Under the pieces are notes generated by a model. It saw only the letters and a list, made by a program, of their open reading frames with translations, was not told the origin of the DNA and did no database searches. From positions 1-43,388 of the IMG/VR virus record IMGVR_UViG_3300046009_006218: a DNA stretch of 43,388 nt. One strand, given 5' to 3'. Position numbers and translations under genes: made by a program. Source of the stretch: a virus. This document shows positions 968-32,537 of the stretch, one piece after another (position 1 is the first letter of the stretch; each line of letters opens with the position of its first letter).

Positions 968-1231
968 TTAGCCCTTGCTTCCTTTGTACTTTTTCCAAAT
1001 GTCAGCGTCTGCTGTATGACGAGTCTTGCCGCCTACAATGAAACTGTTTACACGGGCGAGACCCCATTGTTCTGGTCCTGCACCTGGTCTATGCCCGCCC
1101 TTCCAAGCCACCACACCACGGTCATAAACTTGCTTCAGAAAGCGATAGGGTATGCCTGACTGCTTTGATTTGTTTCGTAAGGCTTTATGCGAAACAGGCG
1201 ATTTTTCGACAAAGAACTTGAAGGATTTCAA
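968..1231 (-). CDS. DUF5824-like small phage protein, TTG start
   Basis: This is an 87-residue basic protein with the signature GIPYRFLKQVYDRGVVAW-KGGHRPGAGPEQWGLARVNSF, which I recognise as the DUF5824-type domain of phage proteins (function unknown). The frame has no ATG. The best start is a TTG whose bases form a TTGA overlap with the stop of the upstream gene, with GGAAAGAGAG ahead of it, so translation is probably coupled. The N-terminus MKSFKFFVEK resembles a capsid-targeting sequence (F-V-E as possible cleavage motif), though this is the weakest match in the set. Family naming is from memory. Confidence 0.7.
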   Translation of the reverse strand: MKSFKFFVEKSPVSHKALRNKSKQSGIPYRFLKQVYDRGVVAWKGGHRPGAGPEQWGLARVNSFIVGGKTRHTADADIWKKYKGSKG

Positions 1232-1842
1232 AGTTTTGCTCTCTTTCCGCTAGGTAGAATATAGGTGCTTGCTGCCTTTGCTATAGACGGTGCATTGATG
1301 CCAAGCACAACATCGACATTTGCAATTTTATCTTGAGTCTTGTCGTTTACATCAAATCCCTGTATCCAATTTTTCAAGAAGTCCCATCTCTGCTTGGCAT
1401 CTTTTAATCTAGCAATGGCTGCTCTTCTGATGTTCTTCCTTGATTCCTCATCCGCTGCTCCAGCCGGACCCATATTAAGAGCATCGGTGTTCATTCCTCG
1501 TATGGATTGTGTAGTCGGTTTTGCCTCTTCCCGACCATCCTCACCTTCAGGATCAATCAAAGTTTCAAATTCGTCTTGTTCGCCATCAGGCTCCACTTCA
1601 AATTGACCAGGAGTCTTTGCAACCATAGCCATAGTTCCTGCTGTTCTATTTTTTGATTGCTGTATGTTGTTGTCGAAATACCGATCTATCGGTGATTTTT
1701 TATTCGGAGAAGAAGGAACCAAAAAAGAGGAAATGCCTTTCCCCGTAAAATACTCGGTTGCCGGAAAACCAACATCTCCAGGATCAGAAACGACCAATCC
1801 AGCGGAAACCTCACTCAAATTGTATTGCTTGAATCTCTTCAT
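1228..1842 (-). CDS. Hypothetical protein with capsid-targeting-like N-terminus
   Basis: This is a 204-residue protein starting MKRFKQYNLSEVSAG. The first 11 residues match the T4 capsid-targeting pattern, with L-S-E as a likely prohead-protease cleavage site. The rest is hydrophilic: an acidic middle (EPDGEQDEFETLIDPEGEDGREE) and a C-terminal part rich in Ala and Lys helices. No catalytic motif is recognised. Its start lies one base after the stop of the large ATP-grasp fusion gene, and its stop overlaps the start of the DUF5824-like gene, so the three are probably co-transcribed. Packaging into the head is inferred from the N-terminus only. Confidence 0.75.
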   Translation of the reverse strand: MKRFKQYNLSEVSAGLVVSDPGDVGFPATEYFTGKGISSFLVPSSPNKKSPIDRYFDNNIQQSKNRTAGTMAMVAKTPGQFEVEPDGEQDEFETLIDPEGEDGREEAKPTTQSIRGMNTDALNMGPAGAADEESRKNIRRAAIARLKDAKQRWDFLKNWIQGFDVNDKTQDKIANVDVVLGINAPSIAKAASTYILPSGKRAKL

Positions 1843-1843: not shown

Positions 1844-4800
1844 TCATGTCTCTGGATTATGTCCCCAAATCTTCAACGCCAGGAGTTTTCTTGTTGGAGT
1901 TCCGTCTGGCTCCCTCAATTTTCCAGCGGCACCTTTCATTCTGTTTATGAAATTGACTTGTCTCTTTGCCCAAGCCCAATCGTTGGCAGTCCACTTTTCC
2001 TTGCCTATTTCCTTCATTCTGACGATAGCACGGGCAGAGTCTCTTCCCGACTTAATCTTCTTCCCCTTTGCTCCTGCCTTTGAAGCCTCCTTACGCGAAA
2101 GACCGGCTTCCTTGCCACCTTCAGAATCAATGAAACCTTGCAGTTCTTTTGGACCCATGTTTACCAATTTGCGCCACTCCTTGTAAAGAGCATCGTTTTC
2201 TTCCTTGTTGTCCTCTTCAGAATAGAATTTCTGACCAGGAGTCATCTTGGAATATGCTTTGACAATTTCGTCTGTTCCCTGCAATTGCCGTTCTTCAAGT
2301 CTTGCTTTAATACGGCGGGAAAGAGAATCAATTGACATGGAATTCACCAACATCCACTCAAAATCCTCATCCAAGGTTGTTTTGATGTTTGAATAAGGTT
2401 CGTACATTTCTGCTTTCATTGCCTCTATGTAAATGTCACAGGTTTCCTTCTGCTCCTGCGAAGCAGCCTTGATTTGCATTTCTCTTGCTTTCTCTATCTT
2501 TTTGGACAGAGGAATGTCTGATGTCTCAAGGATCATCAGAGAATTAACCATATCAGCGACTTCTTCCTTTTTACTGCCAAACTTCTTGGCAAACAATTGA
2601 GTGTATTTTGATTTCTTTTCGGTTTCCTTCGGATCTCCTGGCAACTTTTTCCATGCCCGAGGATCGCTATCCGGCAATTCTGCTCTCTTCTTAAACTGTG
2701 ACTTTCTCTTTGTGGCTTGAGTCTTGCTCAAACCAGCCACATATTTCTTTGGCTGATCTGCTTTTTTGTCTCTCGGAGGAGAAACCGTCTTGCCGCTCTT
2801 GGTCTTGTAGGCTTCCTTGATTTCTTTATCGTCTTGTTGTGTCTGATTCTGTGGATAAATTGCCTGTGCAGGATCCACAACTATGCCCGTCTTGCTCAAG
2901 AACTGCAAGCCAAGAAGAACTTTGGTACTCATATGATCCCTGTCGCCAACGCTGAATTTAATGTTTGGATATGTTTTTCCATGAAACTTCACATCAAACA
3001 TTACGACCATTCTCTTCTTCTTGCCTATTCCGCTCTTTACTACGAGCCTACTGACAATCTTCTTGGTAATTCGCTTGCCGTTTGGCAAGGTGAAAGTCAC
3101 CGTATGATTTCCATTATCCTTGATATCGGTGCCGTGAATCATGTTGTAACCGCTGTTTCCGGTATCCACCTTGGCATCGTACTCTGTTCCCTCTATGGTG
3201 ATCTTTTCCCTAACAGCGAGATTCGAGAACAGTTTCCAATGGGTCTTGTCAATGATGTAATTGACAAAATCCTCTACCAACTCTTCGCCCTTTACATTAT
3301 CCTTGCCCTTGCCTTCCTCGTAATAGCGGTAATAGATGTTGCCGCTACCAGGACTGGCATTCATTTCGATGATGTAAGGCTTTCCATCATTGATTACATG
3401 GTCTATGCCGACATAGTAGCATTTGCTTACCCGTGCTGCCTCTTCGACCAATTTGATCTCTTCCTCCGATAGTTGAAAAGATCCTCCCTTTGATCCTCTA
3501 GCAATGTTAGTTCTGAAATCCTTCGGAGCCTTATCGCGCTTGGCACAGGCAAAAATCTTGCCATTCAGAACAATGCTGCGAACATCATTCTTGAAGTTCG
3601 GCAGGAATTCCTGCATGATTACCTCTGCACCGTATTTCCACAAAGTCTGCAATACGGACTTCAGGCTTTCCATGCTTTCAATCTTGGAAACACCGATACC
3701 TTCTGCTCCCGTAAGTGTCTTGACGATGACGGGGAACTTGCCACCAATTTCCTTGACTGCGGTTTCGATGTTTTCCTCATTGGCGACAAAAGCCGTGCGC
3801 GGATGCGGAAGATTGTGCTTCTTCAACGCAATTGCAGTCTCCAACTTATTGGCACAGAGTTCCATTCCGCCTCGCTCATTGATCATGAATACGCCGTTGT
3901 TCTGCAAAATGGTCATGATGGCAACACCAATATCGCTGTTCATCACACCACCACGGACAACTGCAACTGTATTCTCGGGAATAATGGTGACATCTTTTTC
4001 CTCACCATCATAGTTCTTGATCGTGATCTTCTTCGATGCAACATTGGAAATGTCAACCTGAGCCTTGCTGGTCTTCACCGCATAGAACTCTATCTTTCGC
4101 TTTTTGCAAATGACTTCCATTTTTTCAATGGTGTCGCTCAAGTCTTTTTCCGATGAAGTGAGTGCAAGTATCGTTACTTTATCTGCGGGATTATCTGTGG
4201 CTTCGTAAATGTATTCTTCGCTCAATCCCATTCCCTTGCGAACATCGTTGTAGAGTTGCTTGGCAAGAGTTTTGTTTCCAGGAATACCGATGGAGAAAAT
4301 GTCAAACCGCTTGGCAAACGCAGCAGCCCGCATGAGAGATGCCGACATATACATGGGGTCAACTTTGTTTCCCTTCTTCAGCATCTTGTCAATGTCGTTT
4401 AGACTGACCTTTTCTACACGCTCTTCACCGGCTTGTACAACTTTGAACGAGTCGAATGAATACTTTCGCTTCTTCGGATCCTTCTCGGCAACCTTACCCT
4501 TGTATGCAGCGATACCCTTGAAATTGGCAACCTGATCACTACCGGCAATCATGGTAATATCGGTATAACCCAATTCACAGAGATAAAGAACTGCCTCGTA
4601 TGGATTGGCTGCTTTGTTCAGAGGAAAGTTTCCTTTGGGGAACAACTTGCGTAAGTAGGAAACCTTTTGCGCGTGAGTAAGCGGATTTTTCTTTGGTTCT
4701 TGTGATTTGGAGACAAAGATGAAATGATCTGCACTACGGGACGAAGCCTCATCCGTGACTTTTTTGACAAGAACTCCGTGACCTGTGGTGGGGGGATTCA

Positions 4801-4873
4801 TGCGACCAAATGCGAATACCACCGATTTCTTCTTCGGCTTTGCACTCTTTGATGCTTCAGAAAAAGTCTTCAT
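1844..4873 (-). CDS. Nucleotidyltransferase + RimK-like ATP-grasp ligase + RimB-like retropepsin fusion
   Basis: This 1009-residue multidomain protein starts at the ATG that overlaps the upstream stop (ATGA). Residues 1-9 (MKTFSEASK) look like a capsid-targeting sequence. Residues 17-220 form an HxGH-type nucleotidyltransferase of the NMNAT/cytidylyltransferase fold: FGRMNPPTTGH near the N-terminus, and the C-terminal helix motif MSASLMRAAA. Residues 300-545 are a RimK-type ATP-grasp domain with PVIVKTLTGAEGIGVSKI (K385), VIMQEF and IIEMNASPG (E503, N505). Residues 553-675 resemble the RimB/ATP-dependent zinc protease family, a retropepsin fold, with AKVDTGNSG (D570), GDRDHMSTKVLLG and a terminal VDP. 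Residues 709-765 (YVAGLSK...LPGDP...SKYTQLF) match a repeat-like domain of unknown function common in phages. The remainder is helical and ends TRKLLALKIWGHNP. In bacteria RimK adds glutamates to ribosomal protein S6 and RimB removes them. The target here is unknown. Confidence 0.85.
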   Translation of the reverse strand: MKTFSEASKSAKPKKKSVVFAFGRMNPPTTGHGVLVKKVTDEASSRSADHFIFVSKSQEPKKNPLTHAQKVSYLRKLFPKGNFPLNKAANPYEAVLYLCELGYTDITMIAGSDQVANFKGIAAYKGKVAEKDPKKRKYSFDSFKVVQAGEERVEKVSLNDIDKMLKKGNKVDPMYMSASLMRAAAFAKRFDIFSIGIPGNKTLAKQLYNDVRKGMGLSEEYIYEATDNPADKVTILALTSSEKDLSDTIEKMEVICKKRKIEFYAVKTSKAQVDISNVASKKITIKNYDGEEKDVTIIPENTVAVVRGGVMNSDIGVAIMTILQNNGVFMINERGGMELCANKLETAIALKKHNLPHPRTAFVANEENIETAVKEIGGKFPVIVKTLTGAEGIGVSKIESMESLKSVLQTLWKYGAEVIMQEFLPNFKNDVRSIVLNGKIFACAKRDKAPKDFRTNIARGSKGGSFQLSEEEIKLVEEAARVSKCYYVGIDHVINDGKPYIIEMNASPGSGNIYYRYYEEGKGKDNVKGEELVEDFVNYIIDKTHWKLFSNLAVREKITIEGTEYDAKVDTGNSGYNMIHGTDIKDNGNHTVTFTLPNGKRITKKIVSRLVVKSGIGKKKRMVVMFDVKFHGKTYPNIKFSVGDRDHMSTKVLLGLQFLSKTGIVVDPAQAIYPQNQTQQDDKEIKEAYKTKSGKTVSPPRDKKADQPKKYVAGLSKTQATKRKSQFKKRAELPDSDPRAWKKLPGDPKETEKKSKYTQLFAKKFGSKKEEVADMVNSLMILETSDIPLSKKIEKAREMQIKAASQEQKETCDIYIEAMKAEMYEPYSNIKTTLDEDFEWMLVNSMSIDSLSRRIKARLEERQLQGTDEIVKAYSKMTPGQKFYSEEDNKEENDALYKEWRKLVNMGPKELQGFIDSEGGKEAGLSRKEASKAGAKGKKIKSGRDSARAIVRMKEIGKEKWTANDWAWAKRQVNFINRMKGAAGKLREPDGTPTRKLLALKIWGHNPET

Positions 4874-6129
4874 AACTTCCAATCCTTGGCTAGGTTAAAG
4901 TTTGCCTGTGCAAATTCTATTCTGTCAACCAACTTGATCATCTGACAAGTATCTCCGCATACTGCAACGAATCCTTCGGGGTTGGTAGCCTTTATTCCCT
5001 TATTAGTAGGTAGGTAAGTCCCTATTGTCTTGACTTCAGAAAGTCTCTTGATGACTATCAGTTTTGCTTCGCTGATGAGATTGTGCAATTCAAACATTTC
5101 ATCTATTTGCGAAGCATAAGCATCTATGAACTTCAAGGCAACTGCCTTTTCCTTTGTCTTCTGATCTCTGTTTTTCTGTTGCTTCAATTTTGAAATTGCC
5201 ATATCGTACTTGGCTGCAATGTGAGTTTTCAACTTGGATGAGTCATATTTCGAAATCCCTGCCCGAATGCCAGAATTTACAAAGGGCATGAGTTCGTTAA
5301 AGATGTCCTTGCCATGTGTCTTGTTCAATATTTTGATGAATGCCTTTACCTTGTTTGATAGAGGTGTGGCTATTTTGAGAATTGCTTGTATTTGATCGGC
5401 ATCGCTTGATGTGACGAAGGTCTTTCCCGTAGGTGGTGCAGGAAGAGCAGCAGCAGAAAGCCATACATTCGTGGATTGCTTGAATCCGCTTAGATTTGCC
5501 AAGGTTCCTTTTGTAAGCGATTGTAGGGTCTTTCCTGACCCTGTATAGACCGTATGAAAGACTATTCCCATCTTAGCCGCTTGGATTTTCTTACCAAGAG
5601 GCGAGTCGGTGGGGAAAGCGTAGAGGATCGTGTTTGGTCTGAACACAATGTTGTCCACATTCTGAATTTTCATTCGCTTCTTGCTCTCGCCTACGAACAA
5701 CAAATCTCCGTGATACACTCCTGTTGATGGCAGCACCGCCGGTAAAAGTTCAAAACAAACCTGTAATTTTGATGCTACTTCGGGTTTATCTCCATAGAGT
5801 TTTGCAATATCCTGCTTGGAAAAGCAAATCTTCGGATTCTTTGAAGTTGTTGCGTGTTTCAAGGATACGAAGAACTTCCCATTGGAGGGGTGCTTTCCTA
5901 CAACAATAGCCGGTGCGCCATCCCACTTGGTAGTAATCACCATTTTGGATGGAGGAGTTTTGCTTGCCAAAGTTTTAACAATGTTGTTGAGGAGTTTGAA
6001 GGAATTTGATATGCCATTATTCAAATCCTTGAACATCAAATCCTCAATATGCTCAAGATGCTGTGTCTCTACCGCCTCGTTTAAAGGGCAGGATGGAGCG
6101 TATGTTAGAGTTGAAAAATTGGCTATCAT
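4870..6129 (-). CDS. DUF6267-like protein with KxDG ligase/nucleotidyltransferase motifs
   Basis: This 419-residue protein is of the type found in marine T4-like phages (DUF6267 from memory), recognised by HLEHIEDLMF and KWDGAPAIVVG. K68-W-D-G fits motif I (KxDG, the lysine that is covalently nucleotidylated) of the ATP ligase/capping enzyme superfamily. YHGDLLF near residue 140 may be motif III, E385-G-F-V-A-V motif IV and I-K399-L-V motif V. The N-terminus runs to an L-N-E/A sequence at residues 16-19, a plausible prohead-protease site, so it may be head-packaged. Its stop overlaps the start of the large fusion gene, which implies co-expression. The ligase-fold reading is inference from motifs; the substrate is unknown. 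Confidence 0.75.
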   Translation of the reverse strand: MIANFSTLTYAPSCPLNEAVETQHLEHIEDLMFKDLNNGISNSFKLLNNIVKTLASKTPPSKMVITTKWDGAPAIVVGKHPSNGKFFVSLKHATTSKNPKICFSKQDIAKLYGDKPEVASKLQVCFELLPAVLPSTGVYHGDLLFVGESKKRMKIQNVDNIVFRPNTILYAFPTDSPLGKKIQAAKMGIVFHTVYTGSGKTLQSLTKGTLANLSGFKQSTNVWLSAAALPAPPTGKTFVTSSDADQIQAILKIATPLSNKVKAFIKILNKTHGKDIFNELMPFVNSGIRAGISKYDSSKLKTHIAAKYDMAISKLKQQKNRDQKTKEKAVALKFIDAYASQIDEMFELHNLISEAKLIVIKRLSEVKTIGTYLPTNKGIKATNPEGFVAVCGDTCQMIKLVDRIEFAQANFNLAKDWKL

Positions 6130-8731: not shown

Positions 8732-9337
8732 TCAGATATCAACAGTCCAACAATTTTCATACATTTCCGCAGTTACTTTATCCGTTTTGTATTTTACAAG
8801 TCCTCTGAATTTAACTCTATCTCCAAATCTTTCGTCTACTGCTTTTTTGACTCCATTGTCTCCCCAATAGTAATCGTGTCCTGCCATAATTCCACCCTTT
8901 TTGATCTTCGGCAACCAAGCCTCTATGTCTTCTTTCACGCATTCATATGAATGGCAAGCATCTATAAACACGATATCCACCGAATTATCCTTGAATTCCT
9001 TTGCGCCTTCTACGGATGTTTTTCGTATGGGAGCGACTACGGATGAAACCTTTTGTGTATTGGTTACAAACAAAGGATACAGCCTGTTTGTTTTGATGTA
9101 AGGATCATCGGAGTGTTCCGGAGAACCTTCCCAAGTGTCTATAGCATAGCACTTGATGTTTTTCCCTGAATTTATGATTTCAACTCCCAAAAAAGCCGTG
9201 CTTTTACCCTTCCAAGAGCCAACTTCCACAAATACAGAACCATCCTTCATTGTTTCCACGAATTCCGAATAAAGTTTTGGAAATGTAAACCATCCTTCAG
9301 GCGATTCGCCTACAGTTGTAGTCCAATAGTGTTCCAT
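8732..9337 (-). CDS. SAM-dependent methyltransferase (class I)
   Basis: This 201-residue Rossmann-fold methyltransferase resembles the Methyltransf_24 group. FVEVGSWKGKST is the SAM-binding motif I, AIDTWEGSPEHSDD carries the acidic residue that would hold the ribose, and VDIVFIDACHSYECVKEDIEAWLPKIKKGGIMAGHDY matches motifs IV to VI. The start was set at the ATG three bases after the upstream epimerase stop, with AAAGG before it; a longer in-frame extension runs into the epimerase gene. It is the last gene of the glycan island, so it likely methylates a sugar or glycan. Confidence 0.85.
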   Translation of the reverse strand: MEHYWTTTVGESPEGWFTFPKLYSEFVETMKDGSVFVEVGSWKGKSTAFLGVEIINSGKNIKCYAIDTWEGSPEHSDDPYIKTNRLYPLFVTNTQKVSSVVAPIRKTSVEGAKEFKDNSVDIVFIDACHSYECVKEDIEAWLPKIKKGGIMAGHDYYWGDNGVKKAVDERFGDRVKFRGLVKYKTDKVTAEMYENCWTVDI

Positions 9338-9339
9338 AA

Positions 9340-10251
9340 TCAAACCTTTCTTTCTTTTGCTATCCAATCTTTTACGCTTATACGAGCAGTCCAACCCAAC
9401 TCTGTATTTGCTTTTTTTGTATTGGCAAGACTAACTCTTGATTCTGCCGGTCTGCATGGTATGTATGAAGTTTTGCCATCCATGAATTTGGCAATTTCGT
9501 TTATTGAATGATTTTTACCAGTTCCTATGTTGTAAATCTGACCCCATTGGTAATTTCTATCAGCAGGAACAAATGTTCCTGCGCGAATATTTGCATCAAC
9601 AACATCGCCAACATATGTAAAATCCCTCCTCTGCTCACCATCTCCCACAATTGTCATTGGCTCTCCTGCGGCAATTTGACGAAGAAAAATACCAATCACA
9701 GGAGCGTATTGTCCGCGCAGAGGCTGACGCTCTCCATACACATTGAAGTAACGGAATGTCACGGTTTCCATACCGTAGAGCCGTGCATACATCCTGCAAA
9801 TCTCTTCACCCGCTACCTTGCTGACCGAGTATGGATTCAGGCAATCGGTAGGCATGGTTTCATTCAATGGCGGTGTATTGACCAAACCATACGCAGCAGA
9901 TGTGGAAGAATAGACTACTCGTTTTACGCCACAAGAACGAGCGCATTCAAGAACTGTTGCAGTACCGATCATATTGTTCTCAAATGCCTTCAGAGGATCC
10001 TCAATTGTCGGCTGAATACGGGCTTCGGCTGCGAGATGAAATACTGCATCCTGACCTTCGTAGAGTTTGCGAACCATTACATAGTCACGAACATCGTACT
10101 TGTAATTATGAGCCTGCGGATTCCAAAAGAACTGTTCATTTGAATCTGCCGACTCGTTATCTATTACGGTAACTTCATGACCTTCCGCTATCAGTCGGTC
10201 AACTAAATTGGATCCTATGAATCCTGCTCCACCAGTTATTAATGTACGCAC
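9340..10251 (-). CDS. NAD-dependent sugar epimerase, UDP-glucose 4-epimerase-like
   Basis: This is a 303-residue extended short-chain dehydrogenase. TGGAGFIGSN at residues 6-15 is the NAD-binding glycine motif, SSTSAAYG the catalytic Ser/Thr region, and YSVSK the Tyr-xxx-Lys pair. The FRYFNVYGERQ and RRDFTYVGDVV motifs are typical of NDP-sugar 4-epimerases such as GalE or WbpP. It would interconvert NDP-hexoses or NDP-uronic acids for the neighbouring glycosyltransferases. It ends three bases before the methyltransferase start. The exact sugar cannot be told from sequence. Confidence 0.9.
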   Translation of the reverse strand: MRTLITGGAGFIGSNLVDRLIAEGHEVTVIDNESADSNEQFFWNPQAHNYKYDVRDYVMVRKLYEGQDAVFHLAAEARIQPTIEDPLKAFENNMIGTATVLECARSCGVKRVVYSSTSAAYGLVNTPPLNETMPTDCLNPYSVSKVAGEEICRMYARLYGMETVTFRYFNVYGERQPLRGQYAPVIGIFLRQIAAGEPMTIVGDGEQRRDFTYVGDVVDANIRAGTFVPADRNYQWGQIYNIGTGKNHSINEIAKFMDGKTSYIPCRPAESRVSLANTKKANTELGWTARISVKDWIAKERKV

Positions 10252-10265
10252 AGTTTTCCTTTAGT

Positions 10266-11243
10266 TTAAGAGTGGCTTAACCATTCTCTATTAGAGAGAT
10301 ACCAACCTATTGTTTCTTCCAATCGTTCTTCAAACGAACGCATTTGATGCCATCCGAGTTCCTTCATTTTTGTTCCGTCCATCGCGTGTCTGATTCCATG
10401 TCCCGAGTGACTTGTTGTGCAATCTACTATGTCACACATCGCCTCTTTGCCCATAATAGAAGAAATCTTGTCTACGAGTTGAAGATTGTCTATTTCCTTG
10501 TCTCCCACGACATGATATCTCTCTCCATTTATTCCATCCCTGATGATCTTGTCAACAGCGAGACATACTTCCTTTGCGTGAATATAGCATCTACTGCTAG
10601 ACCTTTTTGTCTTTACCGAACCGTGAACTTGTATCATTTCTCTATTCAAAATCTTTCGAATCGTAGATGGTATAAACTTCCCCGAAGGCTGTCTTTCCCC
10701 GAAGATATTCATGCACCTTGCTATCTTTATGGGAACCCCGTAAGTACTGTGGTATGAGATGCAAAGTTCTTCTGCTCCTGCCTTTGTTGCCGCATATGGA
10801 TTCTTTGGGTGATATGAATCTTCTTCTCTATGGGGACGATTATTTATGACCGGTCCAAACACCTCATCGGAAGAAAAATACACAAACGAATGAAGAGTTT
10901 TGATACTCTTTGCATAGTTTAGTAGGTTGCAGGTTCCAACAACATTCGTTATTACTGTGTTTAATGGATTCTGTATGGAAGGAAGAACATGACTCTCCCC
11001 ACCCATATGTAAAATCAGATCAACCGATTCTTTCAAAAGTTCTTGATCCAACGGAGTCGATATGTCATGCTTGATGAATCGCAATCTATTGGGTTCTTTG
11101 TAAAATGAATCCAACGATTCTATGCGATGCTTGTTGCCTGTAATGTTCAATGCGATTACTTCAAGATTAGTTGTTGAAAGAATGTGGTCAATCATGTGAT
11201 GACCCAAAAACCCATTCCCTCCCGTTATGAGTACCTTGTTCAT
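10266..11243 (-). CDS. NDP-sugar dehydratase/epimerase (extended SDR)
   Basis: This is a 325-residue extended SDR with TGGNGFLGHH at residues 7-16, YFSSDEVFGP (the Thr of the dTDP-glucose dehydratase STDEVYG replaced by Ser) and YAATKAGAEEL carrying the Tyr-xxx-Lys pair. CMNIFGERQPSGKFIPSTI is close to the RmlB family. It probably acts on an NDP-hexose to give a 4-keto-6-deoxy intermediate or a related reaction. Its start overlaps the stop of the C-methyltransferase gene. It differs clearly from the two other SDR enzymes in the island, so the three probably take distinct steps. Confidence 0.85.
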   Translation of the reverse strand: MNKVLITGGNGFLGHHMIDHILSTTNLEVIALNITGNKHRIESLDSFYKEPNRLRFIKHDISTPLDQELLKESVDLILHMGGESHVLPSIQNPLNTVITNVVGTCNLLNYAKSIKTLHSFVYFSSDEVFGPVINNRPHREEDSYHPKNPYAATKAGAEELCISYHSTYGVPIKIARCMNIFGERQPSGKFIPSTIRKILNREMIQVHGSVKTKRSSSRCYIHAKEVCLAVDKIIRDGINGERYHVVGDKEIDNLQLVDKISSIMGKEAMCDIVDCTTSHSGHGIRHAMDGTKMKELGWHQMRSFEERLEETIGWYLSNREWLSHS

Positions 11244-12478
11244 ACTGTAGTGCCTTCTTGTTTAACGACTTCTTCTATTTTTGTCGTTGGAAAATAGGAA
11301 TATGTTCTCCACGATGAATGCTTGGTTACATGAATTGACAACTTTTTTCTGATTTCGCTGTAGAATGTCCAAGCCAACGGTACGAACAATACCTTTGTAT
11401 TGATTTGCATAATACGACTAATATCTACTATAGGTATATTCGTGCCAGGAGTATACATCCCTAGTTTTTGGGGATTTTCGTCAACAATAAAGTCCATATG
11501 AACTTTGCTTGCATTCAAGAAGGTATTGCCTTTTGCAGCAGCACCATAACCAACAACTGCACATTTTTCGTGGCTTTGATATTGGCTTATCGCTCTTGAA
11601 AAATCATGAATCATCTTTCTTACGGAGTCTGAATAGTTGTCATAACGCTCTACAGAATATCTACCATATGCGGCTTCCCTCTCCATACTTTTTGTTACAC
11701 TATCATCTGATATTCCCGATGTCCCCAAAACAAACAAATACGATTCCCCATAAATTGGTACACGATCTACTGATAAGAGAACCATTCCTGTTCTCTTACA
11801 CAATTCAACCATAGATTTGGTCGAAAAATAGGATATGTGTTCATGATAGATGTTATCAAACTGATTGCTGTCTATCATGTCCGCTTGTGAAGTCTGTACA
11901 TAAAGTTTGGTTTTCCTACCCATAACCGACTTACAAGCATTTAAAAAATGCACCATGTCATCGTGATGTGCCAGAACATTTTGTGCCACTATGACATCAT
12001 ATTCCTTTACCCCAAATCGAGATAAAGTTTCTTCACTTATGGAAGCGTGTTCAACTCTGTCGGCAAATACCAACTTATCGCTGACTACGGGGTCCACAGT
12101 AAAGATACTCCATCCCTTCTTTTTCAGCGACATGATTTGCGAACCATCATTGCATTGTGGATACAAGGACAAAACTAATGCAATTCCTTTTCTTCCAAAA
12201 TCTGCTTCAATCTTGTCCGAAAACCAGTCTGAATACTCTAGAATTGTTTTAGATACATTCTTGCTTGTCGCGCAAGCAGAAAACATTCGAGTCTTGTCAA
12301 CAGAGATGCTTAACTGTGAATGAAAACAGTCCACACACAGATTGAGTCTCAACGGATAGTAGCATATTCTTCTGTCGTTTCTGTGGAAATCGTTTGCCCA
12401 AGGTTGTTGACCAAGGTCCAAAACTTCCTTTAGATTTGATGAGCCGCAGCAAAGACAGGATTTGATTTCCGTAAACAT
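11240..12478 (-). CDS. Sugar C-methyltransferase (TylCIII/NovU type)
   Basis: This 412-residue protein shows the three-part layout of NDP-sugar C-methyltransferases. The N-terminal zinc domain has C8-xx-C11 and C48-xx-C51 with LKEVLDLGQQPWANDF. A central SAM-binding domain contains YDVIVAQNVLAHHDD and YHEHISYFS. The C-terminal domain has VVGYGAAAKGNTFLNA and FIVDENPQKLGMYTPGTNIPI. In deoxysugar pathways such enzymes add a branch methyl to a 4-keto-6-deoxy sugar. The start was set at the ATG nine bases after the stop of the dehydratase; longer forms overlap that gene. Together with the RmlB-like gene it implies a branched deoxysugar. Confidence 0.9.
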   Translation of the reverse strand: MFTEIKSCLCCGSSNLKEVLDLGQQPWANDFHRNDRRICYYPLRLNLCVDCFHSQLSISVDKTRMFSACATSKNVSKTILEYSDWFSDKIEADFGRKGIALVLSLYPQCNDGSQIMSLKKKGWSIFTVDPVVSDKLVFADRVEHASISEETLSRFGVKEYDVIVAQNVLAHHDDMVHFLNACKSVMGRKTKLYVQTSQADMIDSNQFDNIYHEHISYFSTKSMVELCKRTGMVLLSVDRVPIYGESYLFVLGTSGISDDSVTKSMEREAAYGRYSVERYDNYSDSVRKMIHDFSRAISQYQSHEKCAVVGYGAAAKGNTFLNASKVHMDFIVDENPQKLGMYTPGTNIPIVDISRIMQINTKVLFVPLAWTFYSEIRKKLSIHVTKHSSWRTYSYFPTTKIEEVVKQEGTTV

Positions 12479-12486
12479 ATCATTAC

Positions 12487-13386
12487 TCAAGACTTCATCC
12501 AATTCGTGAATATGCCATCCGTGTGTTTGGGGTTCCATCCCTTCTTGTTGATCTTCTCGGTATTTACCGAATAGCGAAGGTCTTGTCCCCATCTGTTCTC
12601 TACAAACTGTATGAGATCCTCGTTTCTTTTAGTTTCGCGCAACAACTGCTTAACTACATCAAGGTTTGTCATGTAATTGTTGGCACCGATGTTGTACACA
12701 TCGTTTTTTACGCCATTCTTCAGTAAATAGTAAATGGCATCAACATTGTCTTTGACATAAATCCAATCTCTTACATAACTGCCGTCGCCATGCAGAGGAA
12801 TGTTTTTGTTCTGCAATATGCAGTTGATCGTTTTTGGTATCAGTTTTTCTTCGTACTGTCTCTCTCCATAGTTATTTGAACTTCTTGTCAGTAAATAGTC
12901 CATCTTGTATGTCCTATGATAAGACAGTACTAGCATTTCGGCTGCTGCTTTGGAAGCAGAATAGGGATTACTTGGCTGTAGTTTGTCTTGCTCTGTGAAC
13001 TTCCCATCTAGCCTGTCCCCATATACCTCATCTGTGCTTATCTGTACAAACAAAGGTCTCTCGTATTCTCGTTTACCCCGTATGAGTTCAAGAAGAGTAT
13101 GAACTCCAATAATATTGCTGTGTATGAACGGCTTACTATCGTTGATCGAATTGTCAACATGAGTCTCTGCTGCAAAGTTTACGACCGCATCACACGCAGG
13201 CAAATGGGTAATTTCACATATGTCCTTGCGAATTAGTGTATAATTACGATTGCCGTCAAACGGTAGGTTTTCTTTGGCACAATAGGTCATCGAATCAAAA
13301 TCAATAATCGTGTCTCCTTCAGCCAATGCTTTTTCTACAAAGTGACTGCCAATAAATCCTCTTCCGCCAGTAACTATCAGATTCAT
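12487..13386 (-). CDS. dTDP-glucose 4,6-dehydratase-like enzyme (RmlB type)
   Basis: This 299-residue extended SDR has TGGRGFIGSH at residues 6-15, NFAAETHVDNSI, QISTDEVYG (the catalytic Thr-Asp-Glu), YSASKAAAEM with the Tyr-xxx-Lys pair, and SNNYGERQYEEKLIP. These are hallmark RmlB motifs. It would convert an NDP-glucose to the 4-keto-6-deoxy sugar, the substrate of the downstream C-methyltransferase. It is shorter than cellular RmlB (about 350 residues). The ribosome-binding site AGGAGATAACC precedes ATG. No RmlA, RmlC or RmlD is in the window, so the precursor probably comes from the host. Confidence 0.9.
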   Translation of the reverse strand: MNLIVTGGRGFIGSHFVEKALAEGDTIIDFDSMTYCAKENLPFDGNRNYTLIRKDICEITHLPACDAVVNFAAETHVDNSINDSKPFIHSNIIGVHTLLELIRGKREYERPLFVQISTDEVYGDRLDGKFTEQDKLQPSNPYSASKAAAEMLVLSYHRTYKMDYLLTRSSNNYGERQYEEKLIPKTINCILQNKNIPLHGDGSYVRDWIYVKDNVDAIYYLLKNGVKNDVYNIGANNYMTNLDVVKQLLRETKRNEDLIQFVENRWGQDLRYSVNTEKINKKGWNPKHTDGIFTNWMKS

Positions 13387-13388
13387 GG

Positions 13389-14126
13389 TTATCTCCTATT
13401 GCTCCCCATAAACATATTGTGAACGATGTAATGCGGATTTTCGTCTTTGGAATGCAAGAAATAGTAGTGATAGCAAGATGGATCGAACCAGTTTGTGGTC
13501 TCCATCATTCTATCGTAGGTAATGTCTATTCGAGGGGCAACTGTTATGTCTTGCCTTAAAACCATTCCAAGAAGCACATCATCGTATTGTCCTGTGTTTC
13601 TTTGATAGTCGATTATCTCTCTACCATTCTGAAGCAACAAATCTGTTATATCTTTTGACATGGTAAAGCAAGCCCCACTAGGATATTTGCAACCATTGTA
13701 CTGGTTTTCCTGTGCATAGACTAACTTACTTTTGGGCAAGAGGTTCAGAGATTCGTCCAGCACATTGAGATTCACATAACTTCCGCTATTTGGTCTTACG
13801 AAGTATTCCCAATCGTACCGACATTTCAATGCATTCATTGCAAGAATACATTTGAACAAAAGATGCTTTGTTCCATCGGGGACATCGACAGTTACTGTTC
13901 TTGTTAACTCATTGACTACAATGGAAGAATTGTACAGTTCGTCAGTTGTCTTGGACAGCCTGTGTTCTTCTGACTCATCTTTTGGATTGCCTCTTACGAA
14001 AAAAACCCTTGTATCTTCACCATAGCAACTTGGGTTCGCCCATGTTTCTCGACATGAGATTTCTTGTCTATCGTATAGGGCATCTCCTCCCGCCAAAACC
14101 AAAATCAATTTCTTCAATTTGATCAT
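13389..14126 (-). CDS. GT31-like glycosyltransferase candidate
   Basis: This is a 245-residue protein. KKLILVLAGG opens a GT-A-like fold, and CRETWA at residues 25-30 matches the R-x-T-W motif of the GT31 beta-1,3-galactosyltransferases. Where GT31 enzymes have the DDD metal motif, this one reads VRPNSGSYVNLNVL, so the usual aspartates are missing. YPSGACFTMSKDI parallels the conserved GxGYV-x-S region, and YDDVLLGMVL parallels EDV-x-xG. The start is the ATG overlapping the upstream stop (ATGA). It may be a divergent, metal-independent transferase; the exact family is uncertain. Confidence 0.6.
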   Translation of the reverse strand: MIKLKKLILVLAGGDALYDRQEISCRETWANPSCYGEDTRVFFVRGNPKDESEEHRLSKTTDELYNSSIVVNELTRTVTVDVPDGTKHLLFKCILAMNALKCRYDWEYFVRPNSGSYVNLNVLDESLNLLPKSKLVYAQENQYNGCKYPSGACFTMSKDITDLLLQNGREIIDYQRNTGQYDDVLLGMVLRQDITVAPRIDITYDRMMETTNWFDPSCYHYYFLHSKDENPHYIVHNMFMGSNRR

Positions 14127-14950
14127 GTATACTCTCTCAAGGTATTTGCAATTTCTGTTTTCCACCAAGACATTTTCAGAGGACCGATGTCGAAGTCCTG
14201 TTCTCTGTCAAACCGATCAAGACTACTGTTCAGTAGAGTTTCGGTAACTTGATCCCACGATTCTACAAACAAAATAGGAAGTTTCTCGTAGTATCTAGTA
14301 TTGCTATCGCGCTTCACAATAGGGATTCTGCCAAGATAAAGCGTTTCCCAAAGACGATGAGTGTCTATTCCATTTCCTCTTGGACACAGAACATAGTGAT
14401 GATTTATCACATCGGTTAACCATGTTCCATACTGTGCTTGCGGTGCAGAATCAATGCACCTATCCGTGCAGACAGAAGAAGAAACATTCCGTGTAACCGT
14501 TTGCCATGCTCCTTCTCTCTCCGATCTGTTGGTGGAGAAACTGTAATTCAGGTAAAGCAGTTTTGAAGGACTGGTTGGATGATCTATCTCCTTGTCTATT
14601 ACTTCCTTCAGTCTTCTTCTTTTTTCAAGTTCTGGAAAGTTCTTGTCGTTTTCAAGACCAATTGGAATAGACTGCACCAACGGGTCTTGTCTGCATTCGA
14701 TGTTTTGCCCAAACCACTTCTTCAGGTTTGGTATTGTCTTTGCGTAGTTTAGCAATGCATCGTTTACGGGAAGATCGCCGTTATGAGTCACCAGCACAAA
14801 GGGCTTTCTGATGAATCTGCCTACTGTGTGCAGAAAATGAGGGGCATGATCTATCTTTGAATAGAATACGGAAGGAATTTCTTTAAGATCAGTTTCGAAC
14901 AGTTCACCCCGAATGAAATCATCGGAAGATATTGAATAGACAGAACGCAT
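14123..14950 (-). CDS. Exostosin-like glycosyltransferase (GT47-type)
   Basis: This is a 275-residue protein with an exostosin-type C-terminal half: YVLCPRGNGIDTHRLWETLYLGRIPIVKRD at 186-215 followed by LPILFVESWDQVTE. This motif binds the nucleotide sugar in GT-B transferases of this class. LVTHNGDLPVND lies in the N-terminal half. No signal or membrane segment is visible, so it acts in the cytoplasm. An ATG at 14950 overlaps the upstream stop (TGATG); a GTG one codon earlier is also possible. It belongs to the run of overlapping glycosyltransferase genes. Confidence 0.75.
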   Translation of the reverse strand: MRSVYSISSDDFIRGELFETDLKEIPSVFYSKIDHAPHFLHTVGRFIRKPFVLVTHNGDLPVNDALLNYAKTIPNLKKWFGQNIECRQDPLVQSIPIGLENDKNFPELEKRRRLKEVIDKEIDHPTSPSKLLYLNYSFSTNRSEREGAWQTVTRNVSSSVCTDRCIDSAPQAQYGTWLTDVINHHYVLCPRGNGIDTHRLWETLYLGRIPIVKRDSNTRYYEKLPILFVESWDQVTETLLNSSLDRFDREQDFDIGPLKMSWWKTEIANTLREYT

Positions 14951-15855
14951 CACATCAATTCCTTCAACTTCTTGTTGTGGACATGGATGCTCAAAATCTT
15001 GGTTAAAGAACCATTAGTAACATCCAATACTCCAATATACTTTCTCATGTCTTTGTCCATCTGTTGCGTAAATCGGTATCTTCCTTCACGCAGTCTGTTG
15101 TGTATGTAATGATGAGGAAAGAGACAACCAGGAGGATTTCCATTATCACAGCCCAACAAATGCTGACCTATACTTGAAGGATCAAACACTCCACCTATGT
15201 TCTGTGCATTTTGAGAAAACTCTCCATCTACCCATATGGGCAGAATGTCTACAAAATCCTTACCTTGCTCCCTGCTTATGATGCTCCAAAGATCCATATC
15301 CAATAGCCATCTTCCTCGTTCTGTATTCATAAGACTCCAGATGTTGTCAACTATTTCCTTCATGGAATCAGAATCTTTGAGATAGCACATACCCAGAACC
15401 ATCTTTTCCTTTGAATCCGGAGTTACTGCTGTTCTCTTATAGAGTGTCGAAAGAATTGACCCCACCGAATTCAAGTCGCAATAGACAAGAACATCGTTAT
15501 CAAAAGTAAACACATCGGTCAGCCCATATTTTGCCATCAATGCCTCTATGTAAAATGGGCGAAGTCCACACGCTCTTGCAGAGGGGTTTACATCTTCCTT
15601 GAAATACGAAGTTGACAATACATCATATCTTGGAGCAAGATTTTCCAAGAGTTCATGCTTTACCTCATACTTCTCAAACTTTTCCTTATCTGTTATTTCA
15701 TGATCATCCGTAATCATATAAATCGGGATATTGGGATTCCATCTTCGTATCTGCTCTATGCAAAGCCAGATGTGGCTTTCCCATGCATCATAGTACTGAC
15801 CTGTTCTTGGATTCCTGCTCTTTGAGCCGGTTTGATAAAGAATGACATTAGCCAT
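14950..15855 (-). CDS. Putative GT-A glycosyltransferase
   Basis: This is a 301-residue protein with a GT-A-like start (NVILYQTGSKSRN) and a metal-binding DxD-type motif FTFDNDVLVY at residues 116-125. This is preceded by ARACGLRPFYIEALMAKYGLTDV, which is the usual helix before the DxD strand. FPHHYIHNRL in the C-terminal part may hold the second metal ligand histidine. No exact family is recognised. It overlaps its neighbours on both sides by a few bases, so it belongs to the same transcription unit of glycan genes. Confidence 0.7.
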   Translation of the reverse strand: MANVILYQTGSKSRNPRTGQYYDAWESHIWLCIEQIRRWNPNIPIYMITDDHEITDKEKFEKYEVKHELLENLAPRYDVLSTSYFKEDVNPSARACGLRPFYIEALMAKYGLTDVFTFDNDVLVYCDLNSVGSILSTLYKRTAVTPDSKEKMVLGMCYLKDSDSMKEIVDNIWSLMNTERGRWLLDMDLWSIISREQGKDFVDILPIWVDGEFSQNAQNIGGVFDPSSIGQHLLGCDNGNPPGCLFPHHYIHNRLREGRYRFTQQMDKDMRKYIGVLDVTNGSLTKILSIHVHNKKLKELM

Positions 15856-16750
15856 TTGCTGCTCCTGCCTTCTGAATTGCAGCCAAAGACCAAGACTTGA
15901 AAGGCTCGGGAATCACCTCAATTGAATTCATATCCACACATTCCGTATTCTTTACCCAAGTTCCATGCTGATATGTAATGTCTTTGATGCACCAAATCTT
16001 GCTGTCCGGCAAGAAAAGATGAACACCAAACCAATGTATTGGAGCATCGCCCCAACGATTGTAGTAAATCTGCTTTGTCTCGTCCAAGCATTCATAGTAG
16101 GACATATACTGTTTCCCTCTGAAGAAGGAAAACTTGGCTATTTCAAAATTGGTGTAGAACATATCCCAATTCCATTCACCATCCTTCAACTTGCTGTTCA
16201 AAGACGCAGGAACAATACCGTTGTCTTCGACAAACTTCTTGGTGGTCTCCCACAGACCCCTTGCGACAAACGATGCTTCCTTTTCGTACTCCGCGAGGTA
16301 GGCATACTCGTATCCCTTTTCCGCCATGTTATCGAAAACATCGTACTTGATGGGGGAAAGAAGAAAGGAATCGGAATCCAATCTCCAGTACCAATCATAT
16401 TGCAGCAGAGCGGGATGCTTGTATATCTCGCCAGAATGAAGACGGCACATATGCCGATATCCCATTCCAAACTGCGTAAGTGGCGGATCATACAAAGAGG
16501 GATCGGATGAGATACCCTCTGGCATCTCAAACTTTAGAATTTCAAACTTGATGTTGGGAACAAATCCCAAGTTGGCATTCAATGCGGAAAACAACTGCGA
16601 GATAGTTGTTCTTTGTATATCATCGTGAAAAACAACAACAGGATACTGATACTTTGCATTAAAATTGCGATAAAGGAGCAAAAGACTTCTGAAAAGAAGT
16701 CCAACATCTCTCTCACGCGACAAATACACAATTACGGCATTCTGCATCAT
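15848..16750 (-). CDS. GT15-family (Kre2/Mnt1-like) alpha-mannosyltransferase
   Basis: This 300-residue protein carries the run of motifs that define the fungal Kre2/Mnt1 mannosyltransferases. They are FGMGYRHMCRLHSGEIYKHP (95-113), YDWYWRLDSDS at 118-128 (fungal form YDWYWRVEPD), LWETTKKF, TNFEIAKFSFFRG at 200-212, and YYNRWGDAPIHW at 229-240 (fungal form YERWGDAPVH). GT15 enzymes transfer mannose from GDP-mannose to make alpha-1,2 linkages. The fungal enzymes are type II membrane proteins, but here the transmembrane stem is absent, so this is the bare catalytic domain in the cytoplasm. The family is mainly eukaryotic, which makes its presence in a T4-like phage notable. Confidence 0.85.
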   Translation of the reverse strand: MMQNAVIVYLSRERDVGLLFRSLLLLYRNFNAKYQYPVVVFHDDIQRTTISQLFSALNANLGFVPNIKFEILKFEMPEGISSDPSLYDPPLTQFGMGYRHMCRLHSGEIYKHPALLQYDWYWRLDSDSFLLSPIKYDVFDNMAEKGYEYAYLAEYEKEASFVARGLWETTKKFVEDNGIVPASLNSKLKDGEWNWDMFYTNFEIAKFSFFRGKQYMSYYECLDETKQIYYNRWGDAPIHWFGVHLFLPDSKIWCIKDITYQHGTWVKNTECVDMNSIEVIPEPFKSWSLAAIQKAGAANG

Positions 16751-17469
16751 GCACTCACTTTCTGCAAATCAAACTCATTCTGCTTACGCTTGGAATAGGT
16801 TTCACGATCAACAGAAAATCCAATTTGCATATTTCTCTGCATCAGAGCATCTTGATTTTCTGCCCACTTGTGAATAATTGGTCGGCGGTCGATATGACGA
16901 AGAACTCCCAACTTCTCAAAGACCTCTGTCTGCTCGTTGTCGCACCACTCGGACTTGTATGCGGGATGATAGATATACCCAAAGCGATCATACAACTTAC
17001 GCCCAATGACAGGCAGGGTAATCAGCGTCTTGAATCCATTTGGTCCCTTTGCTTCTAGGCGAGGATCGTTGTTGTAATTCAATGCGCCATCTAGGTTAGG
17101 AAATTCTCGCAGCATATCCTGAACAATGATATCATCCCAATCCTGCTCAACAGGTTCCATATCATCGGCGGTAGAGATGATGATGTCCCAATCTGTGGTG
17201 GGAATGGCACGATTGATTGCTGCAATCTTTCCTTCGCTATTACCATAAGAAAAGGTGACATCAATATCTCCCTTGATCTTGTTGGTCATGTAATAACGCA
17301 TCGGGTTGTTGTTCATGGACGAATCGTCAATGTCCATCGTGACAACAACCGTAATCTTATGCTTACCCGATGCCTTTGCGAGATAAGCATTCAAATTGTT
17401 CATGAACTTGATTGGACGATGACGAGTCGGATATTTGAGAATCAGGTGTCTCTTATCGTTGTGTTGCAT
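16747..17469 (-). CDS. Glycosyltransferase, GT-A type, paralogue 1
   Basis: This is a 240-residue transferase of a type often seen in marine phage genomes: KYPTRHRPIKF at the N-terminus, VTMDIDDSSM at 43-52, YGNSEGKIAAIN and STADDMEPVEQDWDDII near 99-115, then YIYHPAYKSEWCDNEQTEVF. It is clearly paralogous to the 18048-18740 gene. The start chosen has GGAG about ten bases upstream and lies within the end of the previous gene; another ATG lies eight codons earlier. The substrate is unknown. Confidence 0.8.
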   Translation of the reverse strand: MQHNDKRHLILKYPTRHRPIKFMNNLNAYLAKASGKHKITVVVTMDIDDSSMNNNPMRYYMTNKIKGDIDVTFSYGNSEGKIAAINRAIPTTDWDIIISTADDMEPVEQDWDDIIVQDMLREFPNLDGALNYNNDPRLEAKGPNGFKTLITLPVIGRKLYDRFGYIYHPAYKSEWCDNEQTEVFEKLGVLRHIDRRPIIHKWAENQDALMQRNMQIGFSVDRETYSKRKQNEFDLQKVSA

Positions 17470-18067
17470 ATTGAATAGACTCCGATGTTGCATCGCTGTA
17501 CCTGTAATAGTGCAGCACTTTATCTAGGTGGGTTTCAGAAGTGACATAAGGCATCATTCGGGAAATCCAATCAAGATCCTCTCCATAAGACGAGGAACGA
17601 AAGCGCACATTCTTTGCAATCTTTCTGTGCCAAAAACACATATGGTATGGTGGACGACGAAGTAATGTCTTTCCCGAATTTGGTACATAAGATTCATGCG
17701 GATTACCGACTCTGAAGTCAACCTTGAACTTATCGTTGTTCACGGTACAATCCTGCTCAAATGTGATGACATCGGCAGGGCGTTCTCTCATTGCTGTTTG
17801 AAGAGAAACGAGATAGTCATCAGAAACCCAATCGTCATCATCAAGAAATCCTACCCAACGACCACGGGAAGAATCAAGCAATGCCTGACGCTTCTCTCCT
17901 ATGCTCAATGCCTTATTGTCGGTCAGCGTAAGTATTTCGACTGTATTACCTACAGATTCCAACTGCTTTTCAAGATGTCTATAGAGCGGTGTCCAATACT
18001 TCTCCACTCTACTTGGAATGGTGAGTATCAATACGCTGAATTCGACTTCAGACGGTGCTATTGGCAT
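17453..18067 (-). CDS. GT2-family glycosyltransferase
   Basis: This is a 204-residue family 2 transferase. It opens FSVLILTIPSR, has ALSIGEKRQALLDSSRGRWVGFLDDDDWV with the DDDD metal motif at 76-79, and ends with SSYGEDLDWISRMMP, the ED motif of the catalytic base region. It sits between two paralogous transferase genes and overlaps both. The ATG at 18067 was preferred because longer forms extend into the upstream gene and AAAGGA lies 12 bases before it. It likely adds one sugar of the island's glycan. Confidence 0.85.
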   Translation of the reverse strand: MPIAPSEVEFSVLILTIPSRVEKYWTPLYRHLEKQLESVGNTVEILTLTDNKALSIGEKRQALLDSSRGRWVGFLDDDDWVSDDYLVSLQTAMRERPADVITFEQDCTVNNDKFKVDFRVGNPHESYVPNSGKTLLRRPPYHMCFWHRKIAKNVRFRSSSYGEDLDWISRMMPYVTSETHLDKVLHYYRYSDATSESIQYATQR

Positions 18068-18740
18068 GGATGTCAAAGTTCCTTTCTCTTCTCTTGGAAT
18101 AGTTCTGTCCATCCTCATGATAGAACGCAGGATGCTCGTTTCTTTGATACAAGGCATCCACGCCGATGTCTATCCAATAGTGCTTGATGATCACATTGTC
18201 AATGTAGACTACCTTGTGCAGGATGCGGCTGACATCGGTAAACTCGTTGTCGCAGAACACGCTCTTATATGATGGGTGATAGATGTATCCGAAGCGATCA
18301 TAGTACTTCTTGCCCATGATAGAGAGAGTATTAAGAGCCTCGCCTTTTCGCCCATCATTGTAGTGAAGGACACCATCGAAATCAGGGAAGTTGACAGCCA
18401 TGTCTCGCATGATGATATCATCATATCCTGCCTTCACGGGAATCATGTCATCCGAAGCAAGAAGCAGGACATCGTAGTCCCATCCGCGATCCATGTCTGC
18501 ATTGATTGCAGAAATCTTCGATGTTGAGTTTCCATAAAACCACTTTGCGCTGTCCCCGTTGCGCGACAGCCAGTTGTGCATTCCCGCATTGTTCATGGAA
18601 ACATCGTCAGCATCAAAAGACAGCACGAATTGAACATCGTGCTGCCCCGAGAGCAGACCCTTGTAGAGATTGAATGTTTCCATGAATCTAGCAGGACGAG
18701 ACCTGCTAGGGAACTTAATCAGAAGTTTCTTCTTCTCCAT
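18048..18740 (-). CDS. Glycosyltransferase, GT-A type, paralogue 2
   Basis: This is a 230-residue transferase related over its full length to the 16747-17469 product: KFPSRSRPARFM, SFDADDVSMNNAGM, YGNSTSKISAIN, LASDDMIPVKAGYDDIIMRDM, DRFGYIYHPSYKSVFCDNEFTDV. The shared order of motifs points to duplication followed by divergence and insertion of the GT2 gene between the copies. The ATG chosen lies inside the end of uvsX (26-base overlap), so the glycan genes follow uvsX without a gap. Its specific donor and acceptor are unknown. Confidence 0.8.
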   Translation of the reverse strand: MEKKKLLIKFPSRSRPARFMETFNLYKGLLSGQHDVQFVLSFDADDVSMNNAGMHNWLSRNGDSAKWFYGNSTSKISAINADMDRGWDYDVLLLASDDMIPVKAGYDDIIMRDMAVNFPDFDGVLHYNDGRKGEALNTLSIMGKKYYDRFGYIYHPSYKSVFCDNEFTDVSRILHKVVYIDNVIIKHYWIDIGVDALYQRNEHPAFYHEDGQNYSKRRERNFDIHANSTV

Positions 18741-31640: not shown

Positions 31641-32537
31641 TCAGACCTTTAGTTTGGGGTCGGGGGTCTTAAAATCAGGCTTCTTCATAGCAGTCTGAAT
31701 TATCATGCTCTTTTTGTTCCTATCCCAATCCAAAACAAAAGGAATGTTGAGATTCTTGGAAACATCGTTGATAACTGCTCTCCAATTCACAGGATGATTT
31801 TGAATCTCCGTTGCATACTTCCGATAAGTCTTATTGAATGCATCTTGAATCTCTGCCATGCTCACCGTTCCGCCATAACCGCGTGATCCGTTGATGCGTT
31901 CCCAAAAGTGCTTTGTGAATGCAATGTCAAGTTTTGCCGATGCAAAGAGAGCATCAAGCATACTTTCAAGACTCTTCAGCGAACTCCAAGAAACGCGAGT
32001 GACATTTGCGGTTGCCTGACCAATCTTCTTGACACCGCCGCCTACTCCCGAAACGATGCCTTCGTCCAATGCCATGAGCAACTTGGGATTGACTCTCTTC
32101 TTCTGGCGACCGACCCTCTTCAACGAACCGATGCCGACAGTTTCCTCAAGTTTTTCGTCCAAGTCCCAATGTCCGTAGTGTCCCGTTGACACCAACTTCT
32201 TCTTCATATCAGAGTAGGCATACTTGACATATGCTCCCTTTTCATTCGGCTTGATTCCACCGAGTGCATAGTAGACTCGTTTTTCCATTCGAATGTCATT
32301 GCCGTTGGACTGATCGATGACGAGGTTTCCATCCTCTACCCACGCATGAGGGAATCTCTTGCCTTTGAGTATTCCATGTCCACGCACAAGAGCATGAACT
32401 AGGACGGGACTGCCTTGCGCCTTGAGTCGCTTCCCAAAGAAGTCGCTGTGAAAGCGCATCATTAGGTTCACGGCGGCTTCCATGCAGTCGCCGTCACCAT
32501 TGTAGCCTTCGGAAATGTAAGTCTTGAAGTTCAGCAT
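31641..32537 (-). CDS. Capsid-targeted cysteine-peptidase-like two-domain protein
   Basis: This 298-residue protein starts MLNFKTYISEGYNGD. The first ten residues match the capsid-targeting pattern, with I-S-E/G as cleavage site. After it, DCMEAAVNLM, LVHALVRGHGILKGKRFPHAWVE and LVIDQSNG give Cys, His and Asp/Asn in the order of a papain-like or NlpC-type fold, suggesting a small peptidase or amidase. Residues 200-298 (AFTKHFWERINGSRGYGGTVSMAEI...NIPFVLDWDR...KPDFKTPDPKLKV) form a domain I have seen at the C-terminus of packaged-type proteins of T4-like phages. There is no good ribosome-binding site before the ATG. Confidence 0.75.
   Translation of the reverse strand: MLNFKTYISEGYNGDGDCMEAAVNLMMRFHSDFFGKRLKAQGSPVLVHALVRGHGILKGKRFPHAWVEDGNLVIDQSNGNDIRMEKRVYYALGGIKPNEKGAYVKYAYSDMKKKLVSTGHYGHWDLDEKLEETVGIGSLKRVGRQKKRVNPKLLMALDEGIVSGVGGGVKKIGQATANVTRVSWSSLKSLESMLDALFASAKLDIAFTKHFWERINGSRGYGGTVSMAEIQDAFNKTYRKYATEIQNHPVNWRAVINDVSKNLNIPFVLDWDRNKKSMIIQTAMKKPDFKTPDPKLKV

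Follow-up and report, generated by a model that had tools for sequence, protein, structure and literature searches.

A single minus-strand gene in the viral contig IMGVR_UViG_3300046009_006218 (IMG/VR; positions 1 to 43,388, all of which is analysed here and called the window) encodes an NMNAT-like HIGH nucleotidyltransferase, a RimK-family alpha-L-glutamate ligase, a RimB-type retropepsin (PF05618), and a C-terminal DUF3140-like domain, in that order. In this protein and its relatives, sequences resembling the cleavage sites of the T4 prohead protease occur near the start of the chain and in the inter-domain linkers, and we consider it probable that the protein is a polyprotein, packaged in the capsid and cut there by gp21. 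The phage that carries it is T4-like and belongs to water-dwelling bacteria; the window itself, a fragment of 43 kb, contains no head genes. The gene runs from an ATG at 4873 to a stop at 1844-1846 and encodes 1,009 residues, while an alternative in-frame TTG start at 4882 would give 1,012. Residues are numbered here from the TTG, so that numbering from the ATG is three lower, and a slash in a motif marks the putative cleavage position. The parts are as follows:

1844..4873, minus strand: whole polyprotein gene, with its order kept in 77 complete or partial frames
4853..4864, minus strand: N-terminal T4-like capsid-targeting/processing signal MKTFSE/A, putative site at residues 7-10, shortened relative to relatives
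4217..4828, minus strand: HIGH-superfamily nucleotidyltransferase with NMNAT/NadD-like fold, residues 19-222 (NPPTTGH and MSASLMR motifs, PHROG, predicted fold)
4199..4210, minus strand: putative prohead-protease site IYE/A in linker 1, residues 225-228 (sequence pattern)
3248..4183, minus strand: RimK-family alpha-L-glutamate ligase, pre-ATP-grasp and ATP-grasp, residues 234-545 (Pfam, NCBIfam, predicted fold)
2837..3226, minus strand: RimB-type retropepsin PF05618 with DTGNS active site, residues 553-682 (Pfam, profile, predicted fold)
2810..2821, minus strand: putative prohead-protease site IKE/A in linker 2, residues 688-691 (sequence pattern)
2567..2752, minus strand: DUF5824-like segment, residues 711-772, slightly under the Pfam cut-off
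1859..2170, minus strand: conserved C-terminal domain, DUF3140-like (match at residues 902-983) with a DUF6321-like end, residues 905-1008 (Pfam and relatives)

Putative prohead-protease sites at the N-terminus and between domains

In phage T4, gp21 cleaves after the glutamate of a short motif, and capsid targeting needs only the first ten residues of IPIII (PMC9026906, PMC5694885). We counted the T4-type pattern [ILVF]xE/[AS] in 31 representatives for the N-terminus and linker 1 (between nucleotidyltransferase and ligase) and in 27 for linker 2 (directly past the retropepsin). The motif was present at the N-terminus of 26/31 representatives, against a shuffled mean of 1.4, and in linker 1 of 28/31, against 2.1; site density was 2.7 per 100 residues in linkers and 0.14 in domain interiors, a difference of about 20-fold. 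The representatives are related to each other, and shuffles therefore overstate independence. In a 12-sequence subset that reduces this effect (nucleotidyltransferase domains <75% identical), the N-terminal site was found in 8/12 and the linker 1 site in 11/12, and 0 of 2,000 shuffles reached the observed counts. Linker 2 showed modest enrichment of the strict motif (10/27 versus 4.5 shuffled) because it is itself rich in glutamate; a looser motif occurred in 26/27, versus 14.7.

The initial annotation had noted that the N-terminus looks capsid-targeted. This is supported for the family, where T4-like signals such as MKNFAQHLTE/A and MERFATHITE/A open the proteins of relatives and 22/31 representatives carry a signal ending [IL]xE/[AGS]; the window's own MKTFSE/A is a shorter form, ending FSE/A. 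Both long relatives that hold head genes (contigs G002 and G003) encode gp21 and gp23, the latter with a YL[KR]E/[AS]AP site. Standalone RimK-RimB relatives likewise start with MRHFENFQMITE/A, MQKFTTYITE/S, or QPFKNYLEE/A. For one phage with such a fusion, YerA41, a "Ribosomal protein modification protein" (g112) was marked particle-associated by liquid chromatography-tandem mass spectrometry, as presence only, which places a RimK-RimB fusion in the virion of one relative by the work of others (PMC7354516).

On the reading that we favour, the N-terminal signal would carry the polyprotein into the prohead core, where gp21 would cleave past the glutamate of [ILVF]xE at the N-terminus and linkers. 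This would free the nucleotidyltransferase, a RimK-RimB ligase/protease unit, and the C-terminal domain or domains within the head, and the freed enzymes would exit alongside the DNA and be active in the opening minutes of infection. There, the RimK-RimB unit would add and trim glutamates on the C-terminal glutamates of a target, for which host S6 would be the first candidate.

Several observations weigh against this reading. The window's FSE/A signal is four residues shorter than MKNFAQHLTE/A of its relatives; the contig lacks gp21 and gp23, whose presence in the window phage is deduced from those relatives; and the gene lies among replication genes, outside the head cluster. Further, YerA41 g112 was equated with YerA41_066 by gene order and name, and S6-specific and RimB-specific equivalog models fail. 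The cutting, ejection, and target of the polyprotein are what we infer.

The placement among replication genes would suit a different account, close to the core idea of the initial annotation, in which an intact, unpackaged fusion works in the infected cell, where it writes and erases glutamate tails, either on S6 of the host or on some other protein. Consistent with such an enzyme, RimK-family and RimB-type domains share a single chain, and a bacterial RimBK hybrid shows protease activity on glutamylated S6 (PMC11957791). Targeting signals, linker sites, and the detection of the YerA41 relative in virions argue otherwise, and we regard this account as quite unlikely. Because the inter-domain linkers carry prohead-protease sites, a polyprotein cut in the head appears more likely than one lasting writer-eraser enzyme.

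Identity of the enzymatic domains

All three enzyme parts proposed in the initial annotation are present in one frame, as NPPTTGH, E503-M-N505 (E506 and N508 in the 1,012-residue numbering), and VDTGNS. The nucleotidyltransferase match spans residues 3-237 (Pfam, PHROG, NCBIfam), with an E-value of 1e-44 to PHROG "cytidyltransferase" and of only 0.018 to Pfam CTP_transf_like, and the HIGH-type motif pair (T/H)xGH and SxxxxR appears as NPPTxGH and SASxMR. Its predicted model (predicted local distance difference test, pLDDT, 83) is nearest to NadD-type NMNATs, in agreement with the comparison suggested earlier, but weakly so (E 2e-4, template modelling score about 0.4), and a profile search by sequence against the PDB gave no significant match. 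The modelled likeness appears too weak for naming nicotinamide mononucleotide, nicotinic acid mononucleotide, or any other substrate.

The ligase is more firmly placed. Pfam RimK ATP-grasp matches residues 345-515 (E 7e-30), and the NCBIfam model TIGR00768, "RimK family alpha-L-glutamate ligase", scores 146.9 bits, above its cut-off of 143.4. An AlphaFold2 model of ligase and protease reached a mean pLDDT of 80, and its top Foldseek matches in the PDB were RimK structures (E 6e-20), as expected from the earlier description of this region as RimK-like. Residues of Pseudomonas RimK that bind ADP and glutamate have been described (K141, E178, F210, N213, R64, R189, and N262; PMC10092738); the first four align with window K388, E425, F456, and N459 and the last three with R310, R435, and N508. 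These seven positions are invariant or nearly so among 24 phage sequences; RimK residues S7, R8, and S68 showed no conservation in the phage ligases.

For the retropepsin, PF05618 (Zn_protease) matches residues 559-674 at 30.9 bits (E 3e-7), above the gathering score of 27, and the catalytic D-T-G-N is invariant in 17 sequences. The domain alone found no match in the PDB by phmmer; a profile was needed, and it matched only the RimB-type entries 9g58, 9g59, and 2pma (E 1e-11), in line with the RimB-like assignment made at the outset. Neither of the two contrary outcomes named there, a region that does not fold as a retropepsin or an ATP-grasp lacking a nucleotide pocket, occurred. Relationship to RimK and RimB is one matter and action on ribosomal S6, which had been raised as a possibility, is another: the equivalog for Ribosomal S6--L-glutamate ligase (NF007764) gave 68.4 bits, well under its cut-off of 331, and that for RimB (NF052261) 27.8 bits where 200 are required. 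The relationship is thus supported, the specific action not. We treat S6 as a tentative target of the ligase, and on balance an unlikely one.

The NadD-like fold of the N-terminal domain also raises a small-molecule pathway, in which a nucleotide cofactor such as nicotinamide adenine dinucleotide would be the product of the nucleotidyltransferase and the ligase would glutamylate a metabolite; the next-best NCBIfam score belongs to MptN, a cofactor-glutamylating relative of RimK. The best structural matches, however, are to RimK itself, all complete relatives have the RimB-type protease attached, and protease sites separate the domains, all of which make this pathway very improbable.

Conservation among relatives

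Among viral contigs we found 77 frames, complete or partial, that hold the nucleotidyltransferase-ligase core in identical order, nearly all with a DUF6267 gene upstream; this shared order rules out a chimera, frame error, or misassembly as the origin of the fusion. Two-domain RimK-RimB proteins of about 470-500 residues occur in phages Mosig, YerA41, and GN1, in further contigs, and in one metagenome-assembled contig labelled Izimaplasma, which is possibly viral.

The ligase domain is under strong purifying selection. Nonsynonymous divergence (dN) from relative G002 was 0.057 for this domain, compared with 0.389 for DNA polymerase, 0.303 for helicase, and 0.173 for UvsX, and the ligase thus evolves at about one-seventh of the rate of the phage polymerase. 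Synonymous sites are saturated, so the high identity of the ligase is not due to recent horizontal spread. Since conservation of the ligase exceeds even that of the phage's DNA polymerase, whatever it acts on must be important.

Glutamate runs and a possible second head protease

Bacterial RimB requires about six contiguous glutamates and also cleaves an internal eight-glutamate linker (PMC11957791). Linker 2 carries runs of six to eight glutamates (E6-E8) in 20/27 representatives, directly past the retropepsin and right before [LI]xE, and outside this linker no E6 run was found in 712,000 open reading frame residues of the polyprotein loci. Runs of at least six glutamates in polyprotein-bearing contigs were confined to linker 2 and, in G002 and G003, the two such contigs holding head genes, to the scaffold gp22; eight control phages had none. 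Among gp22 sequences the trait splits cleanly, with E7-E11 in 21/21 members of one T4-like clade (loci L128-L147 and L163) and no run in about 59 others, which include the sister clades.

These distributions, together with the glutamate requirement of RimB and its cleavage of an internal eight-glutamate linker, raise the idea that the retropepsin serves as a second protease of head maturation, which would recognise oligo-glutamate and cleave its own linker 2 and gp22, while the ligase would tune this by lengthening the C-terminal glutamates left by prohead cleavage. However, the window and six other representatives (L005, L007, L009, L021, L069, L076) keep the retropepsin without an E6 run in linker 2, and for this reason we hold retropepsin action on precursor and scaffold as an alternative rather than as the main claim. 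The standalone RimK-RimB phages Mosig and YerA41 also lack an E6 run (judged from DNA pattern), and the gp22 clade is tied directly to the polyprotein in two contigs only (G002 and G003), attempts to extend the linkage beyond these having failed. Stretches of acidic residues are frequent in the core proteins of T4-type phages, which counts against the idea as well, and we think it unlikely. Put more broadly, a ribosome-modifying ligase/protease pair would have been co-opted for head maturation, the retropepsin cutting the glutamate runs of linker and gp22 and the ligase extending C-terminal glutamates at prohead-cleavage sites, such that a glutamate code would control head assembly besides or instead of host ribosomes; this we find improbable.

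Neighbouring genes and other candidate head proteins

Two genes flank the polyprotein gene closely:

4870..6129, minus strand: DUF6267 gene, directly upstream, its stop codon overlapping the polyprotein start in ATGA, with PLNE/A near the N-terminus
1228..1842, minus strand: downstream gene of 204 residues, one base past the polyprotein gene, with T4-like signal MKRFKQYNLSE/V; candidate head protein

The DUF6267 protein holds the ordered motifs KWDG, QGD, F-PNTI-Y, PEGxV, and KLV, a series that may resemble the active site of covalent nucleotidyltransferases (RNA/DNA ligase or capping type). It remains a lead, since comparison by hhalign with single T4 ligases (RNA ligase 2 and DNA ligase) gave no support; its profile had no significant match in the PDB by sequence. 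In phage HTVC008M, a P-loop kinase-like gene (gp129, L004:4276-4938; FFLAGGPGSGKT) lies between DUF6267 and the cytidyltransferase gene, and together with a ligase-like DUF6267 it would resemble an RNA-repair set.

Elsewhere in the window, three minus-strand genes start with T4-like signals and are candidates for head-packaged proteins: 31641-32537 (MLNFKTYISE/G), 33465-33812 (MNFHELRIRLSE/G), and 41895-42656 (MKTFSQLYSELTE/E). A simple scan for targeting signals gave 5 matches in the window against a background of 2.5, and most stretches of G002 and G003 were at or little above background. In G002, the stretch 139.5-168 kb (L229-L230) holds 10 genes with such signals, where about 1.3 are expected, including MKSFKQYIHE/S, MKSYKDYISE/S, MKSFSQHITE/A, and MQSFLAHITE/A; this cluster is possibly a set of injected proteins. 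About 10 kb of the window (8732-18797, minus strand), between the helicase and a UvsX-like gene, encodes sugar-nucleotide epimerase, C-methyltransferase, and glycosyltransferase-like genes. A defence-system library gave no match.

Relation to known systems

Fusion of RimK and RimB is not new as such, as bacterial RimBK hybrids (PMC11957791) and the two-domain proteins of Mosig, YerA41, and GN1 demonstrate. The feature shared with the bacterial RimBK hybrid and the RimABK system is a single chain that combines a RimK-type ligase with a RimB-type retropepsin (PMC11957791, PMC7343187), but in the hybrid RimB is N-terminal to RimK (PMC11957791), whereas in the phage protein RimK comes first and RimB second, with a nucleotidyltransferase added in front, a C-terminal domain behind, and protease sites between. 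The standalone phage proteins (Mosig, YerA41, GN1, and contigs L082-L092) share both domains, their order, and the DTGN motif, with T4-like signals in Mosig and the contigs and detection in virions for YerA41, but they lack the nucleotidyltransferase and C-terminal domain and are 28-37% identical; the literature searched held no description of them as a system. "Cytidyltransferase" proteins of Kyanoviridae (PHROG 395/3041, e.g., HTVC008M gp130) share the N-terminal nucleotidyltransferase, a DUF5824-like segment, and the adjoining DUF6267 gene, without the inserted ligase or retropepsin.

T4 internal proteins and Alt, whose N-terminal signals are cleaved after glutamate by gp21 and which are ejected with the DNA, offer a probable parallel. 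To our knowledge, the T4 examples carry one effector each; the phage polyprotein instead places several enzymes in one precursor, with sites between them. In the literature on polyproteins and prohead proteases, the nearest concept was that of polyvalent proteins, which combine many unrelated enzyme domains, often with a built-in peptidase, and are regarded as proteins that enter the head and are injected (Iyer et al. 2017, PMC5512222). The polyprotein is multidomain in the same way and would be packaged too, but its putative release sites fit the prohead protease that the phage itself encodes; the usual peptidase of polyvalent proteins is a zincin, and the main text of that study mentions no RimK or retropepsin (PMC5512222). 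No description of a nucleotidyltransferase-RimK-RimB polyprotein was found in the openly licensed literature, and what is new is this polyprotein, its family, the joint pattern of processing sites, and the glutamate runs that it has in common with gp22.

If the favoured reading is true, T4-like viruses sampled from aquatic habitats would, in their dozens, deliver a glutamate ligase together with its matching protease along with their DNA, a ready-made enzyme kit that would turn protein glutamylation into a weapon used as infection begins. It would also show how a phage head can be loaded with several enzymes at once, by means of a single capsid-targeted precursor that has protease sites at its joints.
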